DNA of 38,858 bases from Bacteroidota bacterium (GTDB taxonomy: Bacteria; Bacteroidota; Rhodothermia; Rhodothermales; JAHQVL01), in contig JBCCIM010000035.1 in NCBI GenBank assembly GCA_039111535.1, positions 1-38,858 on the forward strand, read 5' to 3'. A model generated the notes under the pieces. That model did no database searches. It was not told where the DNA came from and saw only the letters and a program-made list of their open reading frames with translations. The translations under genes were made by a program, and so were the position numbers. This document shows positions 1-19,147 of the stretch, one piece after another; the stretch's first letter is position 1; each line of letters starts with the position of its first letter.

Positions 1-345
1 ATCGAAGCCTGGCACGACATGGAGAAGGCGCTGGCGCGCCTGCCGGCGCGGACGCGAGCGGTTATCTGGCTCCACGACGTAGAAGGATTTACGCACAAAG
101 AAATCGGACACCTGATGGGTAAAACCGCGAGCTACTCGAAATCGCAGATGGCGCGCGGATACCAGCGGCTGCTCAGCGCGAACGATGCGCAGCGGGCGGA
201 CGGTGCTGACAACCGCGATCGTCTTGCCGGCGACGCGCAGCAGCGGGAAACGCCGCCGGAACAAGAGACGACCAATGAAAGACAGAGCAACACAACGACC
301 GGAATGGAGCGAAGCGCAGCTTTCCCGGCTGCTGGCGCACCGTGA
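1..345 (+). CDS. ECF RNA polymerase sigma factor, C-terminal part (5' truncated by window edge)
   Basis: The frame is open from the first base, so the start lies outside the window. The visible part carries sigma-70 region 4: a helix with LPARTRAVIWLHDVEGF followed by the helix-turn-helix HKEIGHLMGKTASYSKSQMARG, which binds the promoter -35 element in this family. The tail after about residue 60 is polar, low in complexity and without a recognised domain. The next ORF starts inside this gene at 275, in another frame, and begins like an anti-sigma factor, so a sigma/anti-sigma pair is the natural reading. Which genes it controls cannot be seen. Region 4 is clear; subgroup assignment is not possible from the fragment. 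Confidence 0.85.
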   Translation: MEAWHDMEKALARLPARTRAVIWLHDVEGFTHKEIGHLMGKTASYSKSQMARGYQRLLSANDAQRADGADNRDRLAGDAQQRETPPEQETTNERQSNTTTGMERSAAFPAAGAP

Positions 346-1198
346 TGGCGAGCTGGAGGTTGCCGGTTATTGTTTGTCATGTGTCGCTGTTAGTTCTCAC
401 ATACCATCAGAAATGCAGGCAAAGTACCTAAGAGACGCGTGTTTCCTGGCAAGCCGAGGACAAATCCCAGAGGAGATTGTCGTCGTAGTAGTGAAGGTGA
501 GCCAGCGTACGGGCGGAAGCATTCTGGGCGACAAAACGCGTATGCAGCGCATTTCGCGCCACCCCAATGCCTTTGTACGCCCTTCCCCAAACCAGGGCAC
601 CCTCGGCGGCATCGCCCGCCGTACGCGCGAAGCCATGTTGCTCTGTGAAGCAGCCGGTTTTGATGTGATCTTCGTCGAAACCGTTGGTGTGGGCCAGGCT
701 GAGTTTAGCGTGCACCTAATGGTGGATATGCTGCTGCTGTTACTGATCACGGGTGCAGGGGACGATCTGCAGGGAATCAAGCGCGGCATTATGGAAATGG
801 CTGATCTGATTGTAGTCAACAAAGCAGACGGAGAAAATGCGTTGCCGGCACAAAGACTTGTAAAACTCATCCAGCAAGCAACCCATGTCTTACCGGATCC
901 TCGGGACGACTGGTCTACAGCCGTTTTATCCGTTTCGTCGATAGAGCATGCCGGCTTCGAACAAGTAGCAACCGCGCTCAGTACGTTTGAAATGACCATG
1001 CGTGATTCGGGCGCATTGGATGTAACCCGCAGGCAGCAAGCGGTTGCCTGGATGCACCAGCACATCGATGAACAATTGCTTGCCCAACGCAATGGGCATG
1101 ACGTGCTTTTGAATGAGATGGAAAATGCAGTTTCGGCCGGCAAACTAACACCTATGGAAGCTGCCAGAGCCGTTCTTGCACAAATCCTTAAACGTTAA
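275..1198 (+). pseudogene. Chimeric ORF: anti-sigma-like start fused in frame to a MeaB/ArgK GTPase lacking its N-terminus
   Basis: From ATG 275 the protein opens with MKDRATQRPEWSEAQLSRLLAHRDGELE, which resembles the start of an anti-sigma factor following its sigma gene. About 45 residues without recognisable similarity follow. From about nucleotide 500 it matches MeaB/ArgK: RTGGSILGDKTRM, RHPNAFVRPS, the FVETVGVGQ switch region, the IVVNKAD guanine-specificity motif, and the usual C-terminal dimerisation helices. MeaB proteins protect and load methylmalonyl-CoA mutase. The roughly 95 N-terminal residues, including the GxxGxGKS P-loop, are absent, so GTP hydrolysis is unlikely. I infer a deletion/fusion remnant or an assembly joint rather than a working gene. 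An alternative in-frame start lies at 185, deeper inside the sigma gene. Confidence 0.7.
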
Positions 1199-1388
1199 GC
1201 CTTACGGTCGCTTCCAAGAATTATTGAAATCGTCCCCACTTCTTTTCGTAACCGTATTGCCCGGCTTTCAGGCATTAAAGCAGCGCACACGGGATGGCAC
1301 ACTCGTTGAATAGGGAGCACCTGCCCTACCATCCCCCCCCGAATCTTTGCTTCGTTGCATTGAAGCAGTAGCCCCCCAGCTAGCCTGT

Positions 1389-3119
1389 ATGATTAAAAAG
1401 CCCAATGATAACAAATGGGTACGCCTGTTTGTCGTTATAGCCCTTTTTACCTCCCCTATCCTCTTTCAAGGATGCGACACCTTTGGAACTGAAACTACAG
1501 CATCGAATGAAGCCACAAATGCATTAACACCGCAAGCACCTGTATCTGCTGATCATCCCAAACTCCGCCACCCTCAGCTACTTGATCAAGCAAGGGGTAC
1601 CGTAGATGGCGCCGGCAAAGGTGGAAGCGATCAAATCCATCTTATGCTGGCCTTCAACGGCTATGAAGCAGATGGCATTACCAAGCGTGTGATGAACAGA
1701 TATGACGTCACCCGCCGGATCCTGAACAAGTACGAAGATGACATTCGCCTGAAAGTGCAGCTCAGCAAAGCCTTTGACGGGATTTCGATTAAAATCAACG
1801 ACGAAATCATGGAGGACTTCCTCGCAGATCTTGCGCAAGACCCCGATTTTGCATGGGCAGAACCCGACGTTGATTTTGGCCAGCTATGGGTTATCCCCGA
1901 GAAAAAGGGGCATCATGAAGATCAACTTATTCCCTGGGGTATAGCCCGTATTGGTGGCGGCCTTGACAAGCCCAAAAACGACAAAAAAGTCCATGTTTAC
2001 ATTATGGACTCCGGGGTCTCCAAAGAAGACATTAACGTTGTTGAGCACAAAGACTTCACGATGCTTTTCCAGAATCGGGAAGAAGAGTACTGGGATGATG
2101 CTGTCGAGCAAACAACGCCTGTCTACGACCCAGACAATGCCGGCAATCCAGCTGACGAAAGCGGCCACGGCACGCACATCGCTTCAACACTCGGCGCCAA
2201 AGACGACAAAAAAGGCATGCTTGGCGCTGCTCCGAACGTCAAAATCCATTCATTAAAAGTGCTGACGGCAGAAGGACGCACCGACATTACGACGGTTACA
2301 GCTGCTGTTGACTACGTAACTGAGCAAAAGCTGGCGCATCCAGATGAAGCAATTATTGTCAACATGAGCTTTGGCATGGACATCGGTACGACGGCCTACA
2401 ATAGTCTGGATGAAGCAGTTGCGCGCTCCATCGAAGCGGGTGTTGTGTACGTGGTATCTGCCGGCAACGACGGCCGCGATGCCAGCACGTACTCTCCTGC
2501 ACACGTTGAAGGTGTAATCACGGTCGGTGCATACAATGAGTTTGATGCCTTTTCCAGCTTCTCCAACTACGGCGCTGTTGTTGACATCCTTGCGCCAGGG
2601 GAAAATATCCTTGCCCTATCTCACCTGAAGCATGACGTAGACCATAAAGAGCACGTATTAAACAGCGGCACCTCCTTTGCAGCGCCGCATGTGACAGCAA
2701 CAGCCGCGTTCTACATGGGCCAGCATCCGAAAGCAACACCGGCTGAAGTTAAAGAAGCCATCATCGCAAATGCACGGACAGGCATCAAGGGCACGCCACC
2801 TGCTACCACCAACCTGACTGTTTATGCCGGCGACTTCAGCCGGGACAAAAAGAAGGACAAGCCTTTCAAATTCAAAAAAGCCAAATACGACGAGAAAAAA
2901 CAAACGCTAAAAATTGAGGGCGAAGGTCCAAGATTGGAGCGTATCGTGCTGCACGATGGGAATGACCAGGTACTTGCAGAAACCTCTACAGGCTTTGAAC
3001 ACAAATGGAAAGTTGAACTGGAAGAGGTAGAAGCTGTGCCATGTACAATCAGCGTCACCTTAAACGGCGAAACGCAAACACAAGCAGTCGAACACCGACC
3101 CGGTTCTTGTACCAATTAA
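1389..3119 (+). CDS. Subtilisin-like serine protease (peptidase S8), lipoprotein
   Basis: A secreted endopeptidase. The N-terminus from ATG 1389 is a lipoprotein signal peptide with lipobox LFQGC (Cys29). This start is preferred over a TTG 42 bases upstream, which would bury the signal. Residues of about 60–160 look like an inhibitor-I9-type propeptide. The S8 catalytic triad is intact: Asp207 in IMDSGV, His260 in SGHGTHIAS and Ser429 in SGTSFAAPHVT, with the oxyanion Asn in VSAGND. About 100 residues after the catalytic domain are Lys-rich and probably form a small beta domain. The gene stands alone and ends before a strong hairpin terminator shared with the convergent gene. The substrate is unknown; a nutritional or processing role outside the inner membrane is inferred. 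Confidence 0.93.
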   Translation: MIKKPNDNKWVRLFVVIALFTSPILFQGCDTFGTETTASNEATNALTPQAPVSADHPKLRHPQLLDQARGTVDGAGKGGSDQIHLMLAFNGYEADGITKRVMNRYDVTRRILNKYEDDIRLKVQLSKAFDGISIKINDEIMEDFLADLAQDPDFAWAEPDVDFGQLWVIPEKKGHHEDQLIPWGIARIGGGLDKPKNDKKVHVYIMDSGVSKEDINVVEHKDFTMLFQNREEEYWDDAVEQTTPVYDPDNAGNPADESGHGTHIASTLGAKDDKKGMLGAAPNVKIHSLKVLTAEGRTDITTVTAAVDYVTEQKLAHPDEAIIVNMSFGMDIGTTAYNSLDEAVARSIEAGVVYVVSAGNDGRDASTYSPAHVEGVITVGAYNEFDAFSSFSNYGAVVDILAPGENILALSHLKHDVDHKEHVLNSGTSFAAPHVTATAAFYMGQHPKATPAEVKEAIIANARTGIKGTPPATTNLTVYAGDFSRDKKKDKPFKFKKAKYDEKKQTLKIEGEGPRLERIVLHDGNDQVLAETSTGFEHKWKVELEEVEAVPCTISVTLNGETQTQAVEHRPGSCTN

Positions 3120-3150
3120 TGCGCAAATACTGCAGATCGAAATACGCAAA

Positions 3151-3190
3151 CCGTGCCCGACTATCCTGTTTAGTCGGGCACGGCTATTTT
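3151..3190. terminator. Bidirectional-type intrinsic terminator between convergent genes
   Basis: A perfect 13-bp inverted repeat, CCGTGCCCGACTA at 3151–3163 and TAGTCGGGCACGG at 3171–3183, has a 7-nt loop and is followed by CTATTTT. It sits 31 bases after the protease stop and just before the end of the convergent lipoprotein gene, so it could end transcription from the left. The opposite side lacks a good T-run. Confidence 0.8.
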
Positions 3191-3195
3191 CCGTG

Positions 3196-3714
3196 TTAAT
3201 GGAGTGTAAATATATTTGAATAAACACGCGACAACGAGCCATCCCCTTGTCCACAGCATAAAATTTTTTCGTAGTAAAGCCTGTGCGCACCGCTCACAGC
3301 TCCCCAGGGCGCTCCGTGTGAGAACACACTTGGGAAAACCGTCAGGGTATCTACTCTAGACTCACCCGGCAAGACGAGAAAATTGGCTATGCCCGCAACA
3401 CAACCCCAGCCGCGATTGAAGGCTGAGCCTGTACTATCATCTTCGACATATTCAAAACCGAAAACCGGAATCTTGGTATCCAGATTACACCGATCCAGGT
3501 ATACAGGCACAGATTCGCGGTTTTCATAGCGGATCACAAGCTGATATCGGTTGCCGGCTGGAATCACCGAGTTGTATTCCAGTTTATCTGTGCAGATAGC
3601 GTATTCACCGCATTTAAAGTCACCAACCTGCTGAGGCCCTGCACTTCCAATGATTTCACAGCCTGAAACCACAAAGCCCAGCAATAAGCACAAGGCAGGT
3701 TTTAACTGCTTCAT
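3196..3714 (-). CDS. Putative lipoprotein of unknown function
   Basis: A 172-residue protein with a lipoprotein signal peptide ending in VVSGC (Cys19). The mature part has several cysteines (KCGEYAIC, DRCNLD, GWGC, ILCC) and a beta-rich pattern that could be a single immunoglobulin-like sandwich; YQLVIRYENRESVPVYLDRC is reminiscent of such folds. I do not recognise a named family. Its ATG overlaps the stop of the upstream gene by four bases (ATGA), so the two are translationally coupled. The cell-envelope location is inferred from the lipobox. Function unknown. Confidence 0.75.
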   Translation of the reverse strand: MKQLKPALCLLLGFVVSGCEIIGSAGPQQVGDFKCGEYAICTDKLEYNSVIPAGNRYQLVIRYENRESVPVYLDRCNLDTKIPVFGFEYVEDDSTGSAFNRGWGCVAGIANFLVLPGESRVDTLTVFPSVFSHGAPWGAVSGAHRLYYEKILCCGQGDGSLSRVYSNIFTLH

Positions 3715-4229
3715 GGTAGCGCAATCAGTTTCTCAACAATACCGTTGATGCCAGTTGCCAATGCATCGTGCGCTACCACTTCTACATAACTGCCATTGAC
3801 CATGGCAAATTGTCGCATATACGACTCACTGACATACTCGCGCACCCATTTCCCTTCTTCGGGGTGCGTTTCCGGGTCCTGCTGCGCAGCTACTTTAAAA
3901 AACACCTGATCTTTTTTGCCGAGTTCAACAGCCCGCTCATCAAGGCGGTGCATTTTGGTAATTGAGAGGGCCACTTTACCCTCTTCATCAGGATTAGAAA
4001 CCCCAATAAAATAAACCGTAGGGCTATCCGATTCGTACACAAAGCCTTTAGCTTCCAGTGCAGTTTCCAGCATCTCTAAGGCAACACGATGCCGCTCTCC
4101 ACTGGCTTCATCCATGGCAACAAAACTGGCATCAAAGGTTTGTGCCTGGGCAAAAAGAGAAACAGGGGAAATTAAACAAATTGCTAAAAAAGCGACTCCG
4201 GCGAGTCGGCTCAAGATAGAAATACGCAT
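3711..4229 (-). CDS. Secreted protein of unknown function
   Basis: A 172-residue protein with a classical signal peptide (MRISILSRLAGVAFLAICLI, ending near SLFAQAQ), so it is probably periplasmic. The remainder is mixed alpha/beta, with a YFIGVSNPDEEGKVALSI strand region and no cysteines in the mature part. I recognise no family. An AAAGGTG ribosome-binding sequence lies five bases upstream of the ATG, stronger than for most genes here. It is the first gene of a two-gene operon with the overlapping lipoprotein gene at 3196–3714. A shared envelope role is inferred from the operon only. Confidence 0.75.
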   Translation of the reverse strand: MRISILSRLAGVAFLAICLISPVSLFAQAQTFDASFVAMDEASGERHRVALEMLETALEAKGFVYESDSPTVYFIGVSNPDEEGKVALSITKMHRLDERAVELGKKDQVFFKVAAQQDPETHPEEGKWVREYVSESYMRQFAMVNGSYVEVVAHDALATGINGIVEKLIALP

Positions 4230-4349
4230 ATCAGCACCTTTAAAAGAAATGAAAGATGGGTTGCTGTAGCAGAGGTGCAGAGGCGAAGGGTTTTCAGTAA
4301 AAATTTTACGACACTTTAATTTAAAGCATCAAGGGCATTTTATGCAAAC

Positions 4350-4625
4350 CTACACAACTGTGTGGCGCAATTTTATTTCGATGTAACACGATTCGCAAAC
4401 CAGGGCCATGTCATGAAATGCCTTAAAGGCATCTGTTAGGCTGCCCTCAAGCTCGAACAAAGCTTCACAGGCATTACACCAGGCTTGCAAGTCGCGCGGT
4501 ACAGTACTGGTTTCGATAAATCCCAATGGCCCATCTTTTCCTTCGAGTAAATGCCGGCAAATCACTGTAACGGGTCTCTTTCCATGTTTGGCGCAGTCAA
4601 TTTCCAACGTCGTGTCTTCGGCCAT
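4350..4625 (-). CDS. Small Cys/His-rich protein, probable zinc-binding
   Basis: A 91-residue protein without a signal peptide. It carries four ordered metal-ligand pairs: Cys11-x2-His14, Cys23-x-His25, Cys50-x2-Cys53 (WCNACE) and Cys77-x2-Cys80 (VCESCY). That spacing suggests two zinc sites, but no named family is recognised. It begins nine bases after the stop of the DUF2459 gene, so the two are probably cotranscribed. The start at 4625 is the only sensible ATG before the first Cys. The role may be structural or regulatory; nothing in the sequence decides this. Confidence 0.75.
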   Translation of the reverse strand: MAEDTTLEIDCAKHGKRPVTVICRHLLEGKDGPLGFIETSTVPRDLQAWCNACEALFELEGSLTDAFKAFHDMALVCESCYIEIKLRHTVV

Positions 4626-4634
4626 GGGATTCCA

Positions 4635-5312
4635 TCATAAGTGATACATTACGCTTTGCGAAAACGGCGTCCATATCCCTGTTTTGACACCGATACGGCG
4701 CAGCGCCCTGCCCGTCCAGTCGTTACAGGTGTTAAACAGACTGTAAGAGCCGTTGGCTGCATAAAATGTATCGTTCCCCCGGTACCCTCTTTCGGGAATC
4801 AACACGGGATTCCCCCGCGCATCTCTGGCAAATGAGGATTGAATAATGGCAATGAGTCTTTCATGTTGTTCGGATGTAAGCATCAACGAACGCACAAATT
4901 CTCCGGGCTGTGGATTTCTGTAATACGTGACGTGCATCGCCGTTGCGCTTTTGAGTAACAGCGCGCGAACTGCGGTAGATAGGGTGAGGTCATCCCAGGT
5001 AGGCGTATCGAGATAAAAACCACGGTCGCCCCACCCAAACGCTATGTGTGTCATGTTGGCCGGTTGAATCTGACGAAAATGGCCGGCGGGAAATTGCTCT
5101 TGCCAGTTTGTATCTGGCGTATTTAGCGGTAAAATCAGATCTGTATGGACGCCATTGGTGGAGACATAGATCTCAATGCCATCAGGTGGCGCAACTGCGT
5201 GGCGATTTACGGGGATAACAGCTAACACAATGGCCATCAATAAAAATAAAAACGATAATACTAAAACGGCGAGAAATCCTCGCAGCGCTTGTTTTAGTAT
5301 CCGTTTATACAT
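4635..5312 (-). CDS. DUF2459 / TIGR02117 family protein, membrane-anchored
   Basis: A 225-residue protein with one N-terminal membrane segment (about residues 12–34, FLAVLVLSFLFLLMAIVLAV). It then shows the family hallmarks: IYVSTNGVHTDLILPL, a FGWGDRGFYLDTPTW block and a C-terminal LFNTCNDWTGRALRRIGV block. His in HTD and Cys in NTCN are the obvious candidate catalytic residues. The family is uncharacterised; in some genomes it lies near urease genes, but none are here. A good ribosome-binding site (CAGGAG, about six bases before the ATG) supports the start. It leads a two-gene operon with the Cys-rich protein downstream. An extracytoplasmic hydrolase is possible, but this is inference. Confidence 0.85.
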   Translation of the reverse strand: MYKRILKQALRGFLAVLVLSFLFLLMAIVLAVIPVNRHAVAPPDGIEIYVSTNGVHTDLILPLNTPDTNWQEQFPAGHFRQIQPANMTHIAFGWGDRGFYLDTPTWDDLTLSTAVRALLLKSATAMHVTYYRNPQPGEFVRSLMLTSEQHERLIAIIQSSFARDARGNPVLIPERGYRGNDTFYAANGSYSLFNTCNDWTGRALRRIGVKTGIWTPFSQSVMYHL

Positions 5313-5400
5313 AGGCGGCTCCTGTTTATTTTTTTAATTTGGGGATTAGGCATCTAAGAATGCGTGTGCACGAGAAAGTACACAAAAGTACAAATTGGCG

Positions 5401-5883
5401 CTACTCAACGTCACGCATATCAACCCAAAACCTGGCATGATAGGAGCCACCGTATTTCACAAAAAGCTCAACCAATCCACTTAGCTCGCCCTCAAAATTC
5501 GCACGCTGTATTGCAACGCGTCCGCCAGACAATTGCGGGCCATTGAAATAGTTTCCCGTGAGTGTATCCTGCGTACCATACCAGACATCAGTCAAAGCAA
5601 GGGGTGCCTGGTTTAATTCGTTTCTTTTTTCGAGTCTTATTTGAAATACAATCCGCCTCGGCGAATTCGAATCTTCGTCTTGGAAATACTGCAATTGTAC
5701 AGCATCGCCAAAGCGTTTTGCATTCCATTTTTCAACGACATCGTCTTCAGTAAACCGAACACCGCCATAGTTTGTTACTGAAAAGTTCTGCCCGTCTTCG
5801 TTGTCAAGAAACGAACATCCCGTTGTTAAATACAGGATCAGAAACAGTGAAGAAGTCAGCGAAAGGTGATTTTTTTTGAACAT
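5401..5883 (-). CDS. Putative lipoprotein of unknown function
   Basis: A 160-residue protein with a lipoprotein signal peptide whose lipobox is LTTGC (Cys23). The mature part is rich in beta-strand patterns and charged residues (VVEKWNAKRFGDAVQLQYF, RRIVFQIRLEKRNEL) and ends in a hydrophobic-alternating strand region FWVDM. No family is recognised. It is separated from the DUF2459 gene by about 90 bases, so it may be an independent unit or the first gene of the same minus-strand run. An outer-membrane or periplasmic location is inferred from the lipobox. Confidence 0.72.
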   Translation of the reverse strand: MFKKNHLSLTSSLFLILYLTTGCSFLDNEDGQNFSVTNYGGVRFTEDDVVEKWNAKRFGDAVQLQYFQDEDSNSPRRIVFQIRLEKRNELNQAPLALTDVWYGTQDTLTGNYFNGPQLSGGRVAIQRANFEGELSGLVELFVKYGGSYHARFWVDMRDVE

Positions 5884-6038
5884 GACACTACGTTTTTTTG
5901 GTTAGAAAAAAGGGTGTAGTATCAGTCAAAAAAGGGGTGGTATCCTCGCTGTTATTGAAGGGTATAGTTAAGTATAGGCAGAAATTTCAGATTTGTTCTG
6001 GTTCGTCCTGAAAAGTATCGTCACACTTCCAGGATGCT

Positions 6039-6689
6039 TTATGCCATTTTCACGCGTTGATATAGCGATGTTTGCCACATCAGTGTATGCTGACTGCTTA
6101 TTTCCTCAAACCCATTGTTACGGATTTGTTGCTGCAGTACAGCTTCGCTATGCACAAACGTTTGAAAACTGTGCCCCGACAGTCGCCAAATTTTGTTGCC
6201 GAACCAGAACGCGAAGCGGGCATAAGCATGCGGCCTCGGATAGCTGATGGCAAACAAGTTTGTGCACTTCCCCAACACTGCATCCAGCAATTCAATAGGC
6301 GCAGGATAGCAACAGACTACCCGATCCAGCGCAACGACATCGACAACAGGCACCGCATCAGCTTGCTGTACCACATCTCCGTGAATTAACTTCAGACGGG
6401 CTTCCGTCCCCAGTCGCACGGCCTCCTCTTTTGCAAGCGCCAGAGAAGCTGAAGACATGTCCACAATGGTTGCAGCCTTGCCGCCTACGGCTAGCACTTC
6501 GTGCGTGATCATGCCGATACCGCCACCAACATCAAGCAGCGTCGTATCTGTCAGCTTATGCTGGCGGAGTGCATCAACAAGCAGTCTCGTGGTCCCACCG
6601 GGGCCTTTCCTGCGATATTTCCTGAGGTCGCGCAGGGCATATTTCTTGTCGAAGAACTGGTCTGTAGCTTGCACGCAACAACTGGACAT
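6039..6689 (-). CDS. Class I SAM-dependent methyltransferase
   Basis: A 216-residue protein with a Rossmann-type methyltransferase core. Motif I LLDVGGGIGM lies at residues 51–60, the acidic end of strand 2 is in ATIVDMS, and the motif III region is GDVVQQADAVPVVDVVALDRVVCCYP. Overall layout resembles Mg-protoporphyrin O-methyltransferase-like and other small-molecule methyltransferases, but the substrate cannot be assigned. There is no signal peptide, so it is cytosolic. The upstream gene on the same strand (YbjQ-type) ends 59 bases before its ATG, and cotranscription is plausible. The N-terminus MSSCCVQATDQFF contains a Cys pair of unknown meaning. Confidence 0.85.
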   Translation of the reverse strand: MSSCCVQATDQFFDKKYALRDLRKYRRKGPGGTTRLLVDALRQHKLTDTTLLDVGGGIGMITHEVLAVGGKAATIVDMSSASLALAKEEAVRLGTEARLKLIHGDVVQQADAVPVVDVVALDRVVCCYPAPIELLDAVLGKCTNLFAISYPRPHAYARFAFWFGNKIWRLSGHSFQTFVHSEAVLQQQIRNNGFEEISSQHTLMWQTSLYQRVKMA

Positions 6690-6748
6690 AGCCGCTTACT
6701 CTCTGGTTACTCTGATTCTACTTCGCGTATGTATCCCTCCACACCTTC

Positions 6749-7069
6749 TCACTCCTCCTCCATAGTAACAGCCGTTCCATAAGCAAGCATTTCAGCTGCA
6801 CCACCCATCACTACTGATGTTGCAATGCGAACAGACACAACTGCGTTTGCGCCGAGTCGTTCAGCGTCTTCCATCATCCGCGATAGGGCTTCTTCTCGGC
6901 TTTCTTCGAGCAGTTTGGCATACGTGCGGATTTCACCACCAATCATATTTTTGAACACTGCGCCGATATCGTTCCCCAGGTGACGCGCCCGAATCGTATT
7001 GCCTCGTACCAATCCGTGTGTAAGCGTAATTTTTCTCCCATGAATGGTAGGTGTAGTTACTATCATCAT
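6749..7069 (-). CDS. YbjQ / UPF0145 family protein
   Basis: A 106-residue protein matching the YbjQ (UPF0145, putative heavy-metal-binding) family over its whole length: TTPTIHGRKITLTHGLVRGNTI, then a helix with YAKLLEESREEALSRMMEDAERLGANAVV, and the closing strand AEMLAYGTAVTM. Family members form small oligomers and no biochemical role is firmly established. The ATG pair at 7069 is preceded by a strong GGGAGGA ribosome-binding site, unlike most genes here. A GC-rich hairpin (7181–7205) lies in its 5' leader. The methyltransferase follows 59 bases downstream. Confidence 0.88.
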   Translation of the reverse strand: MMIVTTPTIHGRKITLTHGLVRGNTIRARHLGNDIGAVFKNMIGGEIRTYAKLLEESREEALSRMMEDAERLGANAVVSVRIATSVVMGGAAEMLAYGTAVTMEEE

Positions 7070-7180
7070 TATGAATTCCTCCCAGTATAATCTGTGCTCT
7101 TACAAAGTAATAATCCGACAACCTGCGAAAATGCTTCAAGCTGTTGTGTTAGCATCACAGGACGTAAGATCTTCAATATA

Positions 7181-7205
7181 CCCGCCTGTTAGCAAAATAG
7201 GCGGG
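7181..7205 (-). promoter_or_regulatory. Hairpin in the 5' leader of the YbjQ-type gene
   Basis: A perfect 7-bp inverted repeat, CCCGCCT and AGGCGGG, encloses an 11-nt A-rich loop, about 110 bases upstream of the start at 7069. There is no T-run, so it is not an obvious terminator. It may be an operator or a leader structure; function not shown. Confidence 0.35.
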
Positions 7206-7280
7206 GCGACATCAAGTCGATCGTCCACCTGTATGCTTACGCAAGTCGGCCAACTTTGATATTATAGCTGCAATAAATGA

Positions 7281-7316
7281 AAAAAGCCCGCAAGCAACGA
7301 AGCCAGCGGGCTTTTT
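7281..7316. terminator. Intrinsic terminator after the aldehyde dehydrogenase gene
   Basis: The inverted repeat AAAAAGCCCGC (7281–7291) and GCGGGCTTTTT (7306–7316) with a 14-nt loop has A- and T-runs at both ends. It lies 17 bases past the stop of the minus-strand aldehyde dehydrogenase gene and would end its transcript; the symmetry makes it work in either direction. Confidence 0.88.
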
Positions 7317-7332
7317 AATGGATCAAAAGCTG

Positions 7333-8859
7333 TTAGAAATCAAATGAGATTCCCTGCGCAAGGGGCAAGTCAGCGCCATAGTTGACCGTACAGGTCTGCC
7401 GGCGCATGTAAGCTTTCCAGGCGTCAGAACCACTTTCGCGGCCGCCGCCTGTTTCTTTCTCGCCGCCAAATGCTCCACCAATTTCAGCACCGGATGTACC
7501 GATGTTGACGTTGGCAATGCCACAATCTGAGCCGGCAACTGAAAGGAATGCTTCAGCTTCTCTCATGTTGAGCGTGAAGATAGACGAAGAAAGTCCCTGC
7601 GGCACATTGTTCTGGATATCAATGGCTTCCTGAATCGTGTTGTACTTCAGCAAATACAGGATTGGCGCAAACGTTTCGTGTTTGACAATCGCCATGTCCG
7701 GGGTTGCTTCCACGATCGTTGGCTTCACGTAACAGCCCGACTCAAAGCCGGCTCCGTCCAGCACCGCATCACCATTAAGTACATTGCCACCCTGGCTACG
7801 CGCTGCTTTGATTGATGCGTTATATGCGTCTACGGCATCCGTGTCAATAAGGGGCCCCATGTGGTTGTTCTGGTCGAGCGGGTCACCAATGCGGATTTGC
7901 TCATAGGCGTTAACCAGACCGTTTTTGAGCTCATCGTACCGGCTTTCATGGATGATGAGCCGGCGCGTCGTTGTGCAGCGCTGGCCGGCTGTACCTACCG
8001 CACCAAAGACAATCGCCTGGATGGCCTGTTTGAGATCGGCATTTTCAGTTACGATGATTGCATTGTTACCACCAAGTTCGAGAATCATCTTACCAAGACG
8101 CTTGGACACGGCTTCTGATACCGATTTACCCATCCGAGTAGAGCCCGTTGCTGAGACCAGTGGAATCTCAGGGTCGTTAGACATCAGCTCACCCACTTCG
8201 CGATCCCCAACAACTACGCTTGAAATACCCTCTGGCAGATCGTTTTCTTTGAGCACCTCTGCAAAAATCTTCTGGCAGGCGATAGCTGAGAACGGTGTTT
8301 TCTCAGACGGCTTCCACAGGCACACGTTGCCACAAACCCAGGCCAAAGCCGTATTCCACGACCAAACGGCCACAGGGAAATTGAACGCAGAAATGATTCC
8401 AACAATGCCCAGCGGGTGCCACTGCTCAAACATGCGATGGTTTGGACGCTCAGAGTGCATCTGCAGGCCATACAGCTGGCGCGAAAGGCCAACGGCAAAA
8501 TCACAAATATCGATCATCTCCTGCACTTCCCCGAGGCCTTCCTGCAAGCTCTTGCCCATTTCGTAGCTGACGAGCGAGCCCAGGCTTTGTTTGTGCTGGC
8601 GAAGCTTGTCGCCATACTGCCGCACAATTTCTCCACGCTGCGGCGCCGGCATTTTACGCCAGACCTTGAATGCTGCATGCGCTGCTTTTTTAACACGCGC
8701 ATAATCCTCTGCGCTGGCCAGATTGACGGTCCCAATCGTCTTGCCATCTACCGGGGAGTGAACTGCTACTGCGCGTCCGCTACCCTTCCAACTTTTCTGT
8801 CCAGTGCTTACGCCGTTGCTGTCTTTGTCTATGCCCAGGTTCTGAAGAATGTTATCCAT
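7333..8859 (-). CDS. amaB: ALDH7-type aldehyde dehydrogenase (probable alpha-aminoadipate semialdehyde / piperideine-6-carboxylate dehydrogenase)
   Basis: A full-length 508-residue NAD(P)-dependent aldehyde dehydrogenase. The catalytic Cys295 is in [12 protein letters not shown] and the general-base Glu261 in LELGGNN; the [11 protein letters not shown] and [10 protein letters not shown] cofactor-site motifs are present. The C-terminal block [17 protein letters not shown] and [18 protein letters not shown] is typical of the antiquitin (ALDH7) branch, which oxidises the semialdehyde in lysine catabolism, so the symbol amaB is a family-based guess. It is a cytosolic single-gene unit: a terminator lies directly downstream, and a TGTACA-N7-TGTACA candidate operator lies 66 bases upstream of the ATG. 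No other lysine-degradation gene is visible, so a broader aldehyde-detoxifying role is possible. Confidence 0.9.
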
Positions 8860-9329
8860 GTATTTTTATCCCTGTTGAAATCGACACTTCGTATTAACTG
8901 TTTTGCTTCTTCGCTTTGTGCTTATGTACAGCGTTATTGTACACACAGTGCGCCTCAACGCGCAAAGCAAGAAAACTATCCCCATAAGGGTGTGCATTTT
9001 GCGAAAATATCGCAAGACCTGTAAAAAATAGCCACTCATGCGAATTATGGATTGCGTTTAATGCCGATTTTCGAGTGCCGAATGCCGATTGATATTTTTT
9101 TGCAAAGGACGCATACGAGAGTATTGCTACCTGTGCCGTAGTAGTACAAAACAGAAACACTGAAATACGAAAACACGGAAAAATCTTGATTTTGCTTCCA
9201 ATCCTTAATTCGCATCCCTCAAAAGCATTTTGCCGTGAAAAACAGGCTATGGCACGGTCTTCGCAAAACTTGCGGTTACGCTAATGCGACCACAGAAACA
9301 CAAACAAACCCGGCCTTTCGGCTGTCCGT
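8860..9329. other. 470-base intergenic region between divergent genes
   Basis: No gene is supported here. It separates the minus-strand aldehyde dehydrogenase from the plus-strand PL14-like gene, so it must hold both promoters. Visible structure is the TGTACA pair at 8925–8943 and an AT-rich stretch around 9040–9200 containing ATGCCGATT twice (about 9060 and 9082). A short minus-strand ORF at 8894–9160 has no protein-like character. No clear -7/-33 promoter elements were found. Confidence 0.6.
8925..8943. promoter_or_regulatory. Candidate operator upstream of the aldehyde dehydrogenase gene
   Basis: The sequence TGTACAGCGTTATTGTACA has two TGTACA half-sites with centres 13 bases apart, in the intergenic region 66–84 bases upstream of the start at 8859. 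Such paired palindromic half-sites are typical of dimeric repressors. The cognate regulator is not in this window. Confidence 0.4.
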
Positions 9330-11084
9330 ATGAAGCCAGCCCCCAGACGCATCGCACTATTGCTCACCGTTGTGGGACTCAGTTTGATGCATTTGACTAC
9401 ATCTTTATTACACGCACAGGAATTTTCTGCGACGCTGAACAACCATCCGCTTGGTAATTACACCGAATCGCTGATGGAATCCGATTTTTCCAGCGTGCAG
9501 TTGCTCAACAATCTTGGTAACCGGTTTAACATTGTTTCTGGCACTGAGGCGCTGGATGGAAATTCATTGCGTGTTGAATACCTCGCCGGCGAAACTGGCG
9601 CATCCAACAGTGGCGGCCAGTTCTTTGCCTTTTTGCCGGCGCAAGAAGAGTACTTCCTGGAGTACTACATCAAATTCGGCGACAACTTCGACTTCCAAAT
9701 GGGCGGTAAGCTGCCCGGCCTCAGTGGCGGCGAAAGCAATTCGGGCGGCAACAAACCCACAGGCGACGGATGGAGTGCGCGCTATATGTGGCGCGAAAAC
9801 GGCAATATGGTGGTATACCTCTACCACATGGACCAGCCCACCTCGTACGGCGAAGACTTTGAGCTCAACCGCAGCGTACAGCGCGGCACCTGGCACCGGC
9901 TCACGCAGCGTGTGAAGGTGAATACAGGCAACAACAACGACGGCGAGCTCCAGGTGTGGTTTGACGGAGAACTCGTTTTACTGCGCACCGACATCCGTTT
10001 CCGTAACAACAACCAGGCACCGGTCGACCATTTCTTCTTCTCGACCTTCCATGGCGGCAACACGCCTGACTGGGAGCCCGACAACGATGGGTTTGTCTAT
10101 TACGACAACATTCGAATTGGCACCAATCCGGATGACTTTGTACCCGATGGTAATGGCGGGCTGCTTACGCAGGTTGACAAACCTTCAAACGGGGCTGTGT
10201 TTGAGTCGCCGGCTACGATTGCTGTTGAAGCCTCAGCCTTCTCCATTGGCGGAGAAGTCACAGACATTCAGGTGTTTGCCAACGGCACCCTTATCGGTGA
10301 CACTGCAAATCCACCAGCTGCGTTTAACTGGACCGGTGTAACTCCCGGCACCTATACCCTTACTGCTGAAGCCACAAATTCGCTAGGCGAGACGCAAACA
10401 TCTACGCCTGTTCAGATTGCAGTTAATGACATCGACCCGGTTAAAGGGGCCAATCTGGCGCTCAACAAAGAAGTTTCTGTGTCCGCAGAACAAGAAGGCA
10501 ACCGGGGCAGCGGCGCTGTTGACGGGAGTGCTGATCCGGATGACCGCTGGTCTGCGTCTGGTTTCCCTCAGTCGATAACGATAGACCTTGGTGCAACCCG
10601 AGATATCAATTTGGCTGAAGTGATTCCTTACCAGGACCGCGCCTATCAATATACAGTCGCCGTCTCAACGGACAACAACGCATTCGAAACAGTAGTAGAT
10701 CGCTCTTCGAATACGCAAGGCGGATCGCTCTTGTCAGATGCATTCACCAAGACGCCGGCGCGTTACGTCCGGCTAAACGTCACAGGCGCGTCTGGATACA
10801 CGGGCCCATGGATCAGCATTATCGAATTCCGCGTGTTTAACACGGATGGCAGCTCAGAGACGCCACTGCTGGGCGACATATCGCTCGACGGACAAATCTC
10901 GGCGCTTGATGCCTCGATGATCCTCCAGCACGCTGTTGGCCTTATTCAGCTAGAACAGGAAGCGCTCGACAACGCAGACGTGTCAGGCAACGGCGAAGCC
11001 TCTACCTTCGACGCCAGCCTGGTGCTGCAGTATGTGGTGGATTTGATTACCTGCTTCCCAGCCGAGCAAGGCTGCGCAGAATAA
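9330..11084 (+). CDS. Secreted PL14-like polysaccharide lyase with Ig-like, CBM32 and dockerin modules
   Basis: A 584-residue secreted multidomain protein. The signal peptide is about residues 1–29 (ending LLHAQ). Residues of about 31–270 match the polysaccharide lyase 14 fold, with the hallmark KLPGLSGG (from Lys127), GDGWSARYMWRENG and VYLYHMDQ; PL14 enzymes cleave alginate or glucuronan by beta-elimination. Then come a bacterial Ig-like domain (about 281–368), an F5/8-type-C/CBM32 carbohydrate-binding module (about 372–510, NLALNKEVSVSAE to IIEFRVF) and a type-I dockerin-like pair (about 514–575, DISLDGQISALDASMILQ and DVSGNGEASTFDASLVLQ). No T9SS sorting domain is seen. It is monocistronic. 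The exact substrate is inferred from the fold only. Confidence 0.85.
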   Translation: MKPAPRRIALLLTVVGLSLMHLTTSLLHAQEFSATLNNHPLGNYTESLMESDFSSVQLLNNLGNRFNIVSGTEALDGNSLRVEYLAGETGASNSGGQFFAFLPAQEEYFLEYYIKFGDNFDFQMGGKLPGLSGGESNSGGNKPTGDGWSARYMWRENGNMVVYLYHMDQPTSYGEDFELNRSVQRGTWHRLTQRVKVNTGNNNDGELQVWFDGELVLLRTDIRFRNNNQAPVDHFFFSTFHGGNTPDWEPDNDGFVYYDNIRIGTNPDDFVPDGNGGLLTQVDKPSNGAVFESPATIAVEASAFSIGGEVTDIQVFANGTLIGDTANPPAAFNWTGVTPGTYTLTAEATNSLGETQTSTPVQIAVNDIDPVKGANLALNKEVSVSAEQEGNRGSGAVDGSADPDDRWSASGFPQSITIDLGATRDINLAEVIPYQDRAYQYTVAVSTDNNAFETVVDRSSNTQGGSLLSDAFTKTPARYVRLNVTGASGYTGPWISIIEFRVFNTDGSSETPLLGDISLDGQISALDASMILQHAVGLIQLEQEALDNADVSGNGEASTFDASLVLQYVVDLITCFPAEQGCAE

Positions 11085-11105
11085 TGCCGAATGCAAGGTA
11101 AACCC

Positions 11106-11144
11106 TTCGATATTCAGCGTTCCTTGTTCTGTGTTCGATATTCA
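11106..11144. repeat. Two direct copies of TTCGATATTCA
   Basis: Identical 11-base copies lie at 11106–11116 and 11134–11144, a period of 28 bases, in the gap between the lyase gene and the end of gltX. No coding role. They may be remnants of a dispersed intergenic repeat. Confidence 0.5.
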
Positions 11145-11159
11145 AAAGGTTTGCCCCCC

Positions 11160-11190
11160 AGATCCTTCACTACGTTCAGGATGACACGGG
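11160..11190. repeat. Dispersed intergenic repeat, copy 1 (beside the 3' end of gltX)
   Basis: Read on the minus strand this is TGTCATCCTGAACGTAGTGA followed by AGGATCT. It resembles the 'GTCATCCTGA..GAAGGATCT' short palindromic intergenic element found across many bacterial genomes. A diverged copy in the same orientation lies upstream of gltX at 12869–12899. The arms ATCCT and AGGAT can pair. Confidence 0.5.
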
Positions 11191-11209
11191 GTGCAATACG
11201 GCGTCAGCC

Positions 11210-12688
11210 CTAAAGCGTATCCAGCGCTTTCTGAAGCCGGCGCATGCAGGTCTCTTTACCGAGAATGACCATCATGTCGTACAGACTCGGGCCGCCGGCT
11301 ACGCCGGAGAGGGCAATCCGTAGCGGTGCCATGAGTTTACCCAGGCCAGCTTCATGTTCTTCGGCAACCGCTTTCAGATTCGTCTCCAGTGCTTCAGCAG
11401 TAAAATCAGCCGATTCAATGCGCGCCATGTAGGCCTGGAGTAGCGCCGGCGTATCTTCTTTCCAACGTTTCTTGAGCGCCTTCTCGTTATACGACGATGG
11501 ATCGTCAAAGAAATAACGGACTTCTGTCACGAGGTCACTCGCAAAGGACATCCGTTCCTGCATAAGGCCGAGGATAGCAGCCAGCGCATCGTTGTCAACC
11601 TCTATATCGGCCGCAGCAAGCGAAGGCCGAACGCGATGTTGCAGCTCTTCTAGTGAAAAGCCGCGCAAATACTGCTCATTGTACCATTTCAGCTTGTCGA
11701 GGTTAAACTGCACCCCACTGCTGCCTATACGATCCGCAGAGAAAGCAGCAACAAGTTCTTCAACTGTAAACAATTCTTGCTCTGTACCCGGATTCCAGCC
11801 CAGCATAGCCAGGAAGTTTACGACAGCTTCTGGCTCATAGCCGGCTTCCTGATACTGACGCACACTAACCGGAATACCCATTTTCTCGGCATTCCGCTTG
11901 GATAGCTTGCCACCAGTAGGACTGAGAATCAAAGGCAAATGGGCCGTTTGCGGTGGCTCCCACCCAAATGCTTTGTACAACAGCATGTGCTTCGGGGTTG
12001 ACGGCAACCATTCTTCACCGCGGATGATGTGCGTGATCCCCATAAGGTGGTCATCCACAACATTGGCAAGGTGGTAGGTTGGCATGCCATCTGATTTCAA
12101 AAGGATCTGATCGTCGACCTGAGCCGATGCAAAGCTTACGGTGCCACGGACGAGATCATCAAATTGGATCTGCTCATCATCAGGCACACGGAGGCGCACA
12201 ACGTAGGGGTTCCCTTTTTCAATAGCGGCCTGTACGGCAGCCTGGTCCATGGTGAAAGAGTTCTTCATAGACTGCCGCGCCAGGGCATCATATTTGGGCG
12301 AGGGGTTTTCAGGCGTAGCCAGCCGGCTGCGCATCTCATCGAGTTCTTCTTTAGAATCGAACGCGTAATACGCGTGCCCTTCTGCCAGCAATAAATCAAC
12401 GTAGTGGCGATAGTGCGCTTTGCGGTGCGACTGGTAATAGGGTCCATAATCGCCACCAACCTTGGGGCCTTCATCATAATCCAGGCTGGCCCAGGCAAGG
12501 CTGTCGAGCATATCCTGCTCAGCTTCCGCAACGTAGCGCTGCCGGTCGGTATCTTCAATCCGTACAACAAACGTCCCGCCCACTTTGCGGGCAAACAAGT
12601 AGTTATAAAGGGCCGTACGCAATCCGCCAATATGCAGCAGTCCGGTTGGACTGGGGGCAAACCGCACACGCACATCTATTTGATCCAT
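11210..12688 (-). CDS. gltX: Glutamyl-tRNA synthetase
   Basis: Charges tRNA-Glu with glutamate, in the cytosol. The class I signatures are present: RFAPSPTGLLHIGGLRTALYNYLFARK (HIGH region) and the KLSKRN form of KMSKS, with the family block VVRIEDTDRQRYV. From ATG 12688 (MDQIDVRVRFAPSPTG) the protein has 492 residues, the normal length for bacterial GltX. An in-frame ATG at 12754 would add 22 residues unlike the family, so I prefer the shorter form. No discriminating GlnRS features are seen. It is a single gene, flanked on both sides by diverged copies of a short intergenic repeat. Confidence 0.95.
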   Translation of the reverse strand: MDQIDVRVRFAPSPTGLLHIGGLRTALYNYLFARKVGGTFVVRIEDTDRQRYVAEAEQDMLDSLAWASLDYDEGPKVGGDYGPYYQSHRKAHYRHYVDLLLAEGHAYYAFDSKEELDEMRSRLATPENPSPKYDALARQSMKNSFTMDQAAVQAAIEKGNPYVVRLRVPDDEQIQFDDLVRGTVSFASAQVDDQILLKSDGMPTYHLANVVDDHLMGITHIIRGEEWLPSTPKHMLLYKAFGWEPPQTAHLPLILSPTGGKLSKRNAEKMGIPVSVRQYQEAGYEPEAVVNFLAMLGWNPGTEQELFTVEELVAAFSADRIGSSGVQFNLDKLKWYNEQYLRGFSLEELQHRVRPSLAAADIEVDNDALAAILGLMQERMSFASDLVTEVRYFFDDPSSYNEKALKKRWKEDTPALLQAYMARIESADFTAEALETNLKAVAEEHEAGLGKLMAPLRIALSGVAGGPSLYDMMVILGKETCMRRLQKALDTL

Positions 12689-12998
12689 AGGTCGTAAACA
12701 CGCTTCCAGTTGACTTAATCCCCCACTGTACTCCATTCGCGGCATGCTGTTCACGGTTCACGGAAAAAAGACGGGATTCAGGTTGGGTGCCCCGGTTTCC
12801 GATACATGGCATTCGGAATCTGGCGACCTGTAAAAGATTGATGGCTTGACAGGCGCATCTGCCTTCCAAGATTTCCCGGCTTCGTTCGATATGACATGGA
12901 TAAGACGCAGTGCCTGTCCTTCAGAAATCTTTCACGGGCCCATGAGGAAATGGGTAAAGCATAGTGCCCCACCCACTCGAAAATCGGCACTAACAAAA
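12689..12998. other. Intergenic region upstream of gltX
   Basis: No gene is supported. This gap of about 310 bases must hold the gltX promoter (read leftward). It contains the second copy of the dispersed repeat (12869–12899) and starts after the terminator of the sigma/anti-sigma operon. Short ORFs on both strands have no protein-like composition. Confidence 0.6.
12869..12899. repeat. Dispersed intergenic repeat, copy 2 (upstream of gltX)
   Basis: Read on the minus strand it is CCATGTCATATCGAACGAAG followed by CCGGGAAATCT. It has the same layout and orientation as the copy at 11160–11190: both keep TGTCAT at one end, a central GAACG, and ATCT at the other. The two are diverged, so this call is moderate. 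Confidence 0.4.
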
Positions 12999-13026
12999 CA
13001 GGCGCCACCCCGTAGGAAAGCGCCTG
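12999..13026 (-). terminator. Intrinsic terminator of the sigma/anti-sigma operon
   Basis: The inverted repeat CAGGCGC (12999–13005) and GCGCCTG (13020–13026) has a 14-nt loop. On the minus strand it is followed by TTTTGTTA and preceded by an A-rich stretch. It lies 34 bases past the anti-sigma gene's stop. Confidence 0.75.
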
Positions 13027-13059
13027 CTTTTTCTTTGCAACTACTTTAACAAATGACCA

Positions 13060-13641
13060 CTATGGAATAGTGGGTCGGCGAACATCAGCAGAAAGCGCCT
13101 CTACGTCGATGCCCGGGTAAAAGACATATACGTAGTTGGTGCCGGGGAGCACATCCATGTCTGAAAACTGAATCAGTTCGTCGGTACCGGTAACCTGGCC
13201 TTCAACCTGATAAACAGGCGTTTGGCTTGGTGGGTACGTTTCAAAGGTATCAGCTGGTACAAACAGACCTGCCAGAAACAAAAACATGGCAGTAACCACA
13301 GTTGTGCGTAGGGAAATGGCTGTTTTGGCGTTCCACAAAGGCCGGCGATCATCTGCGCGGTCGATGCGCGTCATCATCGTTTTGTGTTTGCGCAGCCGTT
13401 TGAACATGGCTGCGTCGAGCGAAGGAGGCACCGTGAGGTTCTCCGTCCGGCTCATCCGCCGAAATTTCATAACCCCTTCCAATTCCTGCCGGCAATCGCC
13501 GCAAACAGCGAGATGTGCAAACAGATCAGACTGATCTGCTACAGACAACTCACCATCTAGGAAAGCATGTAGCGCCTCAATGGCGGTGTCTTTTGAGACA
13601 TCCTCATTGTGGGCCAACGATTTATTTAAAGGATTACTCAT
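13060..13641 (-). CDS. Anti-sigma factor with zinc-finger motif, single-pass membrane protein
   Basis: A 193-residue partner of the ECF sigma factor encoded just upstream. The N-terminal cytoplasmic part has the ZAS-type motif His43-x3-Cys47-x2-Cys50 (AHLAVCGDC) preceded by ALHAFLDGEL, typical of anti-sigma factors that sequester sigma. A membrane helix spans about residues 108–129 (TTVVTAMFLFLAGLFVPA), leaving a short C-terminal periplasmic domain that could sense an envelope signal. The order sigma then anti-sigma with a 50-base gap, and the shared terminator, support an operon. What signal it reads is unknown. Confidence 0.9.
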   Translation of the reverse strand: MSNPLNKSLAHNEDVSKDTAIEALHAFLDGELSVADQSDLFAHLAVCGDCRQELEGVMKFRRMSRTENLTVPPSLDAAMFKRLRKHKTMMTRIDRADDRRPLWNAKTAISLRTTVVTAMFLFLAGLFVPADTFETYPPSQTPVYQVEGQVTGTDELIQFSDMDVLPGTNYVYVFYPGIDVEALSADVRRPTIP

Positions 13642-13698
13642 CTATATTCTACTCCGATAGGTTCTTGGGCAATGACTACAGAACGTGTGCCTTCCGAT

Positions 13699-14292
13699 CT
13701 AATCGGTCGTTAATTTCTCCGTTTCACTTCCAAGTACTTCTTCGAGATATACCCCGAGTTTCTTCCGCGCTTTGAATAACCGCGATTTTACTGCACTCAG
13801 TGTACTTCTCGTAACAGCTGCAATCTCTTCGTAGGTCATATTCTGGTATTCACGCAAAATGATGACTTCGCGATAGTCAGCTTTCAATTCCAGCAGGAAC
13901 CGATTTACCAATGCAATCTTTTCACTTTTCTCAAGCTCATGCATCGGCGTGTTTTTTGCTCCGTGCAAATGCGGCGGTAAAGCCATTTCCGGATCGAGCG
14001 GAATCTGCCAATTGTTACGCCTGAGCTGATTTAAGCATTGATTACGCGCGATCGTAAACAACCAGGCCTTAAATGAATCTGTTTTCATAAGCCTTTCCCT
14101 GTTCTCGTAAACACGCAAGAATGTGTCTTGTAAAACGTCTTGTGCCAACTCCTTATTCAGGAGCATTTTTACACAAAACGCGTAGACTGCATCCTTGTAA
14201 CGATTGTATAGGGAAACAAAAGCAAATTCATCTCCGGTCTGAAACGCTTCGATCAACGCTCTATCGCCGTTATTAAGTGTGTTTCCAGACAT
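13699..14292 (-). CDS. ECF RNA polymerase sigma factor
   Basis: A complete 197-residue extracytoplasmic-function sigma factor. Region 2 is seen in YNRYKDAVYAFCVKML, DVLQDTFLRVYENRERL and FKAWLFTIARNQCLNQLRR; region 4 in LKADYREVIILREYQNMTYEEIAAVTRSTLSAVKSRLFKARKKL. ATG 14292 is chosen because a GGAG ribosome-binding site lies seven bases upstream; an in-frame TTG at 14316 is the alternative. It forms an operon with the anti-sigma gene and is divergent from the parvulin lipoprotein gene cluster, so it may control those envelope chaperones. That link is inferred from position alone. Confidence 0.93.
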   Translation of the reverse strand: MSGNTLNNGDRALIEAFQTGDEFAFVSLYNRYKDAVYAFCVKMLLNKELAQDVLQDTFLRVYENRERLMKTDSFKAWLFTIARNQCLNQLRRNNWQIPLDPEMALPPHLHGAKNTPMHELEKSEKIALVNRFLLELKADYREVIILREYQNMTYEEIAAVTRSTLSAVKSRLFKARKKLGVYLEEVLGSETEKLTTD

Positions 14293-14401
14293 GAGAAGCT
14301 CCAAAGATAGCTGCAACTGCTGATGAGTAGGACCCCTACGATTTCCGAAAGTTGCTCTTTAGCAGTATTGCTTGTTCAACATCGTAGCATGATTTAATAA
14401 A

Positions 14402-16501
14402 ATGATAAACATTCAAAGCTTCAAAAAATTGCGTACGCTTGTTCCATCGATGTTGCTGGCAGCCTTGTTCGTCGCCGGCTGTAGCAGTTCAAATGTTGGG
14501 GACACTGGTGCTGATCAGATGCCAGATATGCCCAAAACCCCGCAAGTTGCCATGTTTGGCGACCAAACGCTAGGCCTCGAAGAGTTCGAGGATGAATATG
14601 CAAGATCTGTTGGCGGCCGCGACATCGCAGCTGCAGACTCGATGCCCATGTACACCGAATTCCTTGACAGATATGTCGATTTTAGGTTGAAAGTACTTTA
14701 TGCAAAAGACATTGGCCTCGACCAGGATTCTACTCTCCTCTCCGAAATTGATACCTACCGCAACCAGCTTGCGCGTCCGTATCTGCTGGAGAAAGAAATC
14801 CTCGACCCGATCCTGCGCGACCTTTATGTGCGTAAACAGAACATGGTTGATGCCAGCCATATTCTTGTACGCGCCGGCCAGGGAGCAACCCCTGAAGAAC
14901 TGGAGACTGCCCGAATCAAAATGGAGACAATCAGAGATTCCATTGAAATGGGCATCGACTTTAACGAACTGGCCTTCCGTAACTCTGAAGACCCTTCAGC
15001 ACGCGGCCAGCGCAGTGGTGCCATGGGCCGGCTTGGTTATTTTGTAGGCGGCCAGATGGTAAAGCCATTTGAAGACCGCGCCTACACAACGCCAATAGAT
15101 TCAGTATCTGAGGTTTTCAGAACCGATTTTGGCTACCACATCATGAAAATCCATGATCGCCGTGCTAAAGTTGCCGATGTTTGGGCTTCACACATTGCTG
15201 TGCGGTATTTCAAACCTTCCTCACTCGATTCGCTTGATTCTGAAGGCCGTATCGCCCAAATCAAAATGCGACTCGATGCCGGCGAAGACTTTGCCACACT
15301 TGCAAAGGAAGAGTCGGAAGATCTCGACTCAGGCAGCCGCGGTGGACAGATCGGACGCCTCCGGTTCACCCAGCCAGGCATGCCAGACGCGTTCAAGGAT
15401 GCCTTGTTTGCGCTTGAAAATCCTGGCGACTACAGCGATGTCGTAAAAACCGAATATGGCTACCACATTATCAAGCTCGACAAACGCCAGGCAACTGAAA
15501 CGTTTGAAGAAGCTTACGACGAACTAAAAAACCACGCATCTCGCTTGCCACGCCTGAGAAAGGCAGAAAATGCCATGGCAATGCAGATTCGTGAGAAGTA
15601 CGGCGTATCGGTAGACACAACGCTGACGCTTGAAATTCTGGATGGCCGGCATTTTGGTGTACCAAACATCTTGCAAACCCCAGCGAACCAGCTGAACATG
15701 GAAATTGCCTCCCTTGGCGATGAGACGTTCACCTTCCGCGAAGTGGTAACGTTTGTAGAAACAGCTTCTATCCCATTCCAGCCAGATACCCTTGGCCTCG
15801 TTTACGACGCCCTGGAACGCTTCCTCAACGATGAAGCGCTGAACTACGAAGCGGCACGCCTCGAAAGCCGTGACGATTCTTTCAAGCAGATCCTCGACGA
15901 GTTCAAGAATGGCTTGTTGCTCTTCAAGCTCATGGAAGACTCTGTTTGGACCGCCGCTGCGCAAGACACCGCTGGCCTGATGAAGTATCACGCACCTCGC
16001 GCTGACAGCTTCTGGTTTGAAGATCGAACAAGAATTGTAAGCTTCCGTGCCCAGTCTGATTCTGTTTTGAACACACTGGCAACAAAACTCGACGAAGGAA
16101 CGGCCCTCAACGAGCTTGTGAGCATGGCTGCCATGGATTCAACGATGATGGTGCGTGTTGATACAACCTTCCTGGTTGGCCCAAACAAATCCGTCTTTGA
16201 TCGGGCGCTGGCGCTTGAATCTGGCGATTATGTGTCGCCGACGCGCCACAGCAACGGTTTCTTACTGATGATTAATGATGGCATAGCGCCGGCTCGGAAA
16301 AAATCATTCGATGAAGCCCGATCTGAAGTGCTGAACGGCTACCAGACCGAGCTCGAAAACGCGTTGCTTGATCGCCTGCGCGACAAATATGGCATCAAGA
16401 AAATGCCGGCACCCCTTTCAGGAGCCTTTGCTGAAGACAAAGCAATCCTCATGAAAGAAAAAGATCTCTTTGACAACAAAACGCAAAACGCAGGACAGTA
16501 A
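14402..16501 (+). CDS. Peptidyl-prolyl isomerase lipoprotein with two parvulin domains (SurA/PrsA-like)
   Basis: A 699-residue extracytoplasmic foldase. The lipoprotein signal peptide has lipobox FVAGC (Cys27). A helical N-domain is followed by a first parvulin domain at about residues 147–255 (DASHILVRAG to FGYHIMKIHDRR) and a second at about 260–360 (ASHIAVRYFK, GGQIGRLRFTQPGMPDAF, YGYHIIKLDKRQ). The long C-terminal part (about 365–699) is helix-rich and contains a possible third, degenerate unit. Parvulins of this type assist folding and outer-membrane insertion of secreted proteins. It is first of three parvulin-family genes in a row and faces the ECF sigma operon divergently. Confidence 0.9.
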   Translation: MINIQSFKKLRTLVPSMLLAALFVAGCSSSNVGDTGADQMPDMPKTPQVAMFGDQTLGLEEFEDEYARSVGGRDIAAADSMPMYTEFLDRYVDFRLKVLYAKDIGLDQDSTLLSEIDTYRNQLARPYLLEKEILDPILRDLYVRKQNMVDASHILVRAGQGATPEELETARIKMETIRDSIEMGIDFNELAFRNSEDPSARGQRSGAMGRLGYFVGGQMVKPFEDRAYTTPIDSVSEVFRTDFGYHIMKIHDRRAKVADVWASHIAVRYFKPSSLDSLDSEGRIAQIKMRLDAGEDFATLAKEESEDLDSGSRGGQIGRLRFTQPGMPDAFKDALFALENPGDYSDVVKTEYGYHIIKLDKRQATETFEEAYDELKNHASRLPRLRKAENAMAMQIREKYGVSVDTTLTLEILDGRHFGVPNILQTPANQLNMEIASLGDETFTFREVVTFVETASIPFQPDTLGLVYDALERFLNDEALNYEAARLESRDDSFKQILDEFKNGLLLFKLMEDSVWTAAAQDTAGLMKYHAPRADSFWFEDRTRIVSFRAQSDSVLNTLATKLDEGTALNELVSMAAMDSTMMVRVDTTFLVGPNKSVFDRALALESGDYVSPTRHSNGFLLMINDGIAPARKKSFDEARSEVLNGYQTELENALLDRLRDKYGIKKMPAPLSGAFAEDKAILMKEKDLFDNKTQNAGQ

Positions 16502-16571
16502 GACGCACGTCGTATGCTGACCATCGTATACTGCGTGAGGCAGGCATAACCTGCTTGTCTCAAAGTGAAGC

Positions 16572-16630
16572 AAATTAAGGCGAAGTCCTGTTTGGCAAAC
16601 ACAGCGTTGCAACAGGCTTCGCCTTAATTT
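16572..16630. promoter_or_regulatory. Long near-perfect palindrome between parvulin genes
   Basis: The left arm is AAATTAAGGCGAAG then CCTGTT (16572–16592, one bulged T). The right arm is AACAGG then CTTCGCCTTAATTT (16611–16630). Together they form a 20-bp stem, and the loop can pair further (GCAA with TTGC). There is no long T-run, so it may be a terminator, a processing site or a mobile-repeat remnant. It separates the first and second parvulin genes. Confidence 0.6.
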
Positions 16631-16719
16631 CGCTAAAAGCGGTACATCTTCTGATGGGATGTACCTATATTCTCCCCGCCCCCTTCGCTCCACCCTGAAG
16701 CGCCAATTACTCCCTGACC

Positions 16720-17595: not shown

Positions 17596-17623
17596 CTAAC
17601 TGCTGCTGCTATTGTGTTGTCGA

Positions 17624-17679: not shown

Positions 17680-17698
17680 AGATACAGGTATTACCTAG

Positions 17699-19102: not shown

Positions 19103-19147
19103 GCGTATTCGTCGAAAGAGCAATTAATCTAAACATCTTTCCCCTTC

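Follow-up and report, generated by a model that had tools for sequence, protein, structure and literature searches.

The open reading frame at 275-1198 on the plus strand of the window (307 aa) is almost certainly an assembly artefact formed at a chimeric contig end, not a biological fusion. The window is the entire contig JBCCIM010000035.1 of a Bacteroidota bacterium (38,858 nucleotides, here called C35), which belongs to an assembly of 6,594,453 bases in 355 contigs. The same frame remains open further upstream, as ORF 185-1198 and as frame 116-1198. A sequence-only reading had described an anti-sigma-like start joined to a MeaB/ArgK C-terminus, and this description was borne out by the frame itself and by a Pfam MeaB match from residue 69. 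The reading had taken the frame as a join of two parts; the join is present, but three parts were distinguished (Table 1). It had left the choice between a deletion that fused two loci and an error of assembly or recombination. The assembly error is favoured by the other half of meaB on a second contig (C115), by the gene order in relatives and by the composition and kinship of the upstream bases, while a genuine fusion is not.

Table 1 Features at the start of the window
Feature	Position	Strand	Evidence
ECF sigma factor gene truncated by the contig start, leaving its 3' part with region 4; apparently non-native here	1..345	+	Pfam Sigma70_r4_2, E 6.7e-12; gammaproteobacterial nesting; GC3 0.70
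Anti-sigma-like gene start overlapping the sigma 3' end	275..357, boundary approximate	+	LLAHRDGE motif placed as in L147 and L154; similarity lost at about 357
Middle piece, open in the ORF frame	358..499	+	Matchless in relatives and in genome, viral, phage and plasmid collections; GC 0.479 (360-499)
MeaB C-terminal 232 residues, native downstream half	500..1198	+	PF03308, E 6.2e-68; 95% identity to the end of C115; gene order

MeaB/MMAA/ArgK proteins are GTPase chaperones of methylmalonyl-CoA mutase. When the whole frame was scanned, the Pfam MeaB match from residue 69 had an E of 1.1e-68. The Pfam MeaB domain scored 231.7 bits against a gathering score of 23.1, covering profile positions 66-268 of 273. 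Residues 76-307 form an unremarkable MeaB C-terminus. However, the window copy departs from the family: 94 N-terminal residues, the P-loop among them, are missing, and its score fell below the cut-offs of both NCBIfam models (NF006958, 299.6 against 329 bits; TIGR00750, 223.4 against 240.75 bits). The P-loop motif GxxGxGK[ST] was not found in the ORF. For M. extorquens MeaB, PMC9974510 places the P-loop at residues 62-70 and switch I at 92-108, and describes switches II and III and the base loop. By these motif positions, the ORF lacks the P-loop together with part of switch I, and the window protein would probably be unable to bind GTP by the established mode.

Searched as DNA against the own assembly, bases 1-1300 hit a single further place, C115 20340-20779, which matches window 500-939 with 95% identity over 440 bases and reaches the exact end of that contig (20,779 bases). 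On C115, a mutase gene is followed by the start of meaB with the P-loop GAPGAGKST and then by the 440 common bases, and the contig ends inside meaB. The C115 copy has 94 residues ahead of the position of base 500, this motif included, in agreement with the earlier estimate that about 95 residues with the P-loop were missing. DNA similarity to the C115 meaB starts at base 500 (ORF residue 76), and the junction lies 500 bases from the first base of C35. In the 59 bases upstream of it 18 agree with C115, about chance level. MeaB-like matches in the assembly were three, namely C35, C115 and a separate frame on C4, whose length of 1156 residues points to the fused mutase IcmF. A second meaB paralogue was considered and rejected. 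As no other matches were found, the assembly carries one meaB gene, split across two overlapping contig ends. An antisense ORF of 248 aa also mirrors meaB on the minus strand at 397-1143; it was rejected as a gene, its matches being the reverse strand of the relatives' meaB, as is expected of a shadow ORF.

The two copies differ at 21 of 440 bases and are therefore different variants, probably strains. Over 438 aligned coding bases the copies differ in 21 codons, 18 of them synonymously, while neutrality predicts a synonymous share of 25-29% (P 7e-9 to 9e-8). Both the C35 and the C115 variant have recently been selected as MeaB. This pattern argues against a long-lived GTPase-dead form, and a very recent break is still compatible with it. 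If one strain had truly undergone a deletion or recombination, this would leave an acquired sigma/anti-sigma fragment joined to the back half of meaB as a pseudogene, with the C115 allele belonging to the other strain. The presence of two variants and the frame open across both joins fit such an event. It is nevertheless very unlikely, because two joins and two foreign pieces would have to fall within 500 bases right at the contig start, residues 1-75 have no host-order homologue in the 195 genomes searched, and the synonymous excess leaves room only for a very recent break. That a strain holds in this way a GTPase-dead remnant under stress-sigma control is highly improbable. Two other contig ends (3' of C35, 5' of C115) showed no second variant and so give no sign of a strain mixture across the assembly.

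Gene order in relatives was analyzed by tblastn of the window and C115 frames against their meaB neighbourhoods. Three relatives (G012, G023 and G009) have the C115 genes, the mutase, meaB and the window block of 11.2-20.1 kb in this common order on one contig, and the mutase-meaB order is likewise kept on C115. In G012 (single contig, L057), the mutase at 12841-10793 and meaB at 10335-9631 are followed by the window frames of 11210-20149, placed from 8536 down to 57; the order in G023 (L053) is identical, and G009 (single contig, L050) shows mutase, meaB and block within the stretch fetched. Bases 500 onward thus stand where they belong natively, with C115 as the native upstream part. A stretch of about 10 kb of the window (1199-11200), in which a subtilase-family protein is encoded at 1347-3119 (Peptidase_S8, E 9.7e-47), separates meaB from the block which adjoins it directly in these three genomes.

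The P-loop is kept in all 29 non-window loci among the 30 best meaB loci from 60 genomes, 33-34 residues before the junction point; all 60 genomes gave a match, some only to an IcmF-sized frame. The intact intervening sequence, which the sequence-only reading had named as the sign of a misassembly, is present in relatives as well as on C115. For ORF residues 1-75, the window was the sole match in 195 genomes, the 194 others giving none. A genuine fused gene, in which an anti-sigma-type N-terminus and a MeaB unable to hydrolyse GTP would act as regulator or decoy in a stress-sigma operon, can draw on the open frame and the overlap with the sigma gene only. It is hardly credible, as no such gene occurs in the relatives searched, the anti-sigma likeness covers only about 28 residues, residues 1-75 carry no Pfam domain, and the P-loop and part of switch I, as placed in PMC9974510, are gone. 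The earlier suggestion of a stress-sigma operon driving a MeaB without GTPase activity is unsupported for the same reason, the fusion being absent from the relatives searched, and because the 440-base overlap differs almost only synonymously. Only two of the comparison genomes are of the same family, and their contigs also break inside meaB (G001 C264 and C133, loci L059 and L058; G002 C203, locus L049). The two meaB contig ends of G001 overlap by exactly 99 bases, as at a k-mer branch. Breaks in a gene of about 1 kb in three of three same-family assemblies exceed the expectation from about one contig per 15-19 kb.

The GC3 of the sigma part (0.70) is above that of all the 22 window ORFs of at least 250 aa in a mechanical list (mean 0.561, sd 0.041, maximum 0.66). 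A sigma homologue search of genome contigs gave 80 loci, mostly from Woeseiaceae and other proteobacterial MAGs. In a 101-row tree, for which 100 of the 103 loci tried gave a usable row (those with fewer than 42 aligned residues or with a stop were excluded), the window sigma nested with sequences of one family, to which a Pseudomonadales MAG belongs (10-12 rows in the starred sets), and apart from 11 host-order homologues; this tree has 52 columns, an unsettled bootstrap and a long-branch warning, and its label 'gamma' also took in four Gemmatimonadetes MAGs and one Deltaproteobacteria MAG. By composition and tree position, bases 1 to about 357 look foreign, with gammaproteobacterial kinship. 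A source at species level was not found in any of the genome sets searched with this piece: 8 genomes from which loci came (7 with a match, the top one 81% over 108 bases), one family of 206 genomes searched as protein (26 matching at E <= 1e-15), a second family of which 107 genomes were searched as DNA (18 at E <= 1e-15) and 390 genomes drawn from the order of the first family (1 at E <= 1e-10). The best identities, 78-81% over 108-155 bases, are below species level.

The ORF starts at 275 inside the sigma frame 1-345, the position looked for in an anti-sigma gene, which starts within or adjoining its sigma gene. In two loci of the Pseudomonadales MAG family (L147 and L154), a sigma-overlapping gene carries DLLAHRDGE near its start where the window ORF has RLLAHRDGE, and the phmmer comparison gave E 0.25 and 0.58, weak by score. 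No anti-sigma domain was found by Pfam in 275-499 (residues 1-75) up to E 1, and short-peptide tblastn of the start peptide against the 80 loci gave chance matches only. It is reasonable to consider the first 28 or so residues anti-sigma-like from motif and position, though weak by score alone. The window shares region 4 and the overlapping LLAHRDGE gene with gammaproteobacterial pairs of an ECF sigma factor and an overlapping anti-sigma gene, as in these two loci, but its pair is cut off at both ends. The middle piece gave nothing acceptable as protein in 60 genomes including the own one; one other match, of 26 residues at E 0.03, was set aside as chance. Residues 1-75 against genome contigs, and 358-499 against viral contigs and by DNA against phages and plasmids, gave nothing. 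When bases 358-499 were shuffled 20,000 times, 5.8% of the shuffles were open in the ORF frame, and 574 of 2028 real 142-base slices of the window (28%) were open in that frame, so it is not very improbable that the frame runs through.

Short-read metagenome assemblies commonly contain chimeric contigs. C35 resembles such inter-genome contigs in having parts of different kin with the join near the contig end: the sigma part groups with gammaproteobacterial rows, meaB and the downstream block follow the host order, and the missing part of meaB stands in the same assembly at the end of C115, which breaks off inside the gene. For a mock community, PMC11261854 counts chimeric contigs at 2.63 per genome with SPAdes and 22.15 with megahit; C35 differs in that its chimerism is read from sequence comparison, an indirect but strong line of evidence. 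On the preferred reading, one ordinary meaB would have been broken into two contigs which overlap by 440 bases and derive from two sequence variants, C115 holding the upstream genes and the P-loop half and C35 the remainder. About 500 bases of other DNA, a sigma/anti-sigma part of gammaproteobacterial kin and a piece of about 142 bases, would then have been attached at the broken end of C35, the reading frame running through by accident. The join probably arose outside any cell, during library preparation or assembly, and fragmentation and mixed variants suggest that this is a metagenome assembly. Counting against an artefact are the low contamination listed for the assembly (0.06), the lack of a species-level source for 1-499 and of any source for 358-499, the single variant at the two other contig ends, and a comparison with only two other genomes of its family.

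In the organism, meaB would be expected to encode a normal full-length MeaB, the GTPase chaperone of methylmalonyl-CoA mutase, and no function is to be read from the fused ORF. Annotated as it is, it would wrongly credit the genome with an anti-sigma/MeaB fusion and with the loss of MeaB GTPase activity. Where a fused ORF lies within a few hundred bases of a contig start, it should be compared with the other contig ends of its assembly before a new domain architecture is claimed.
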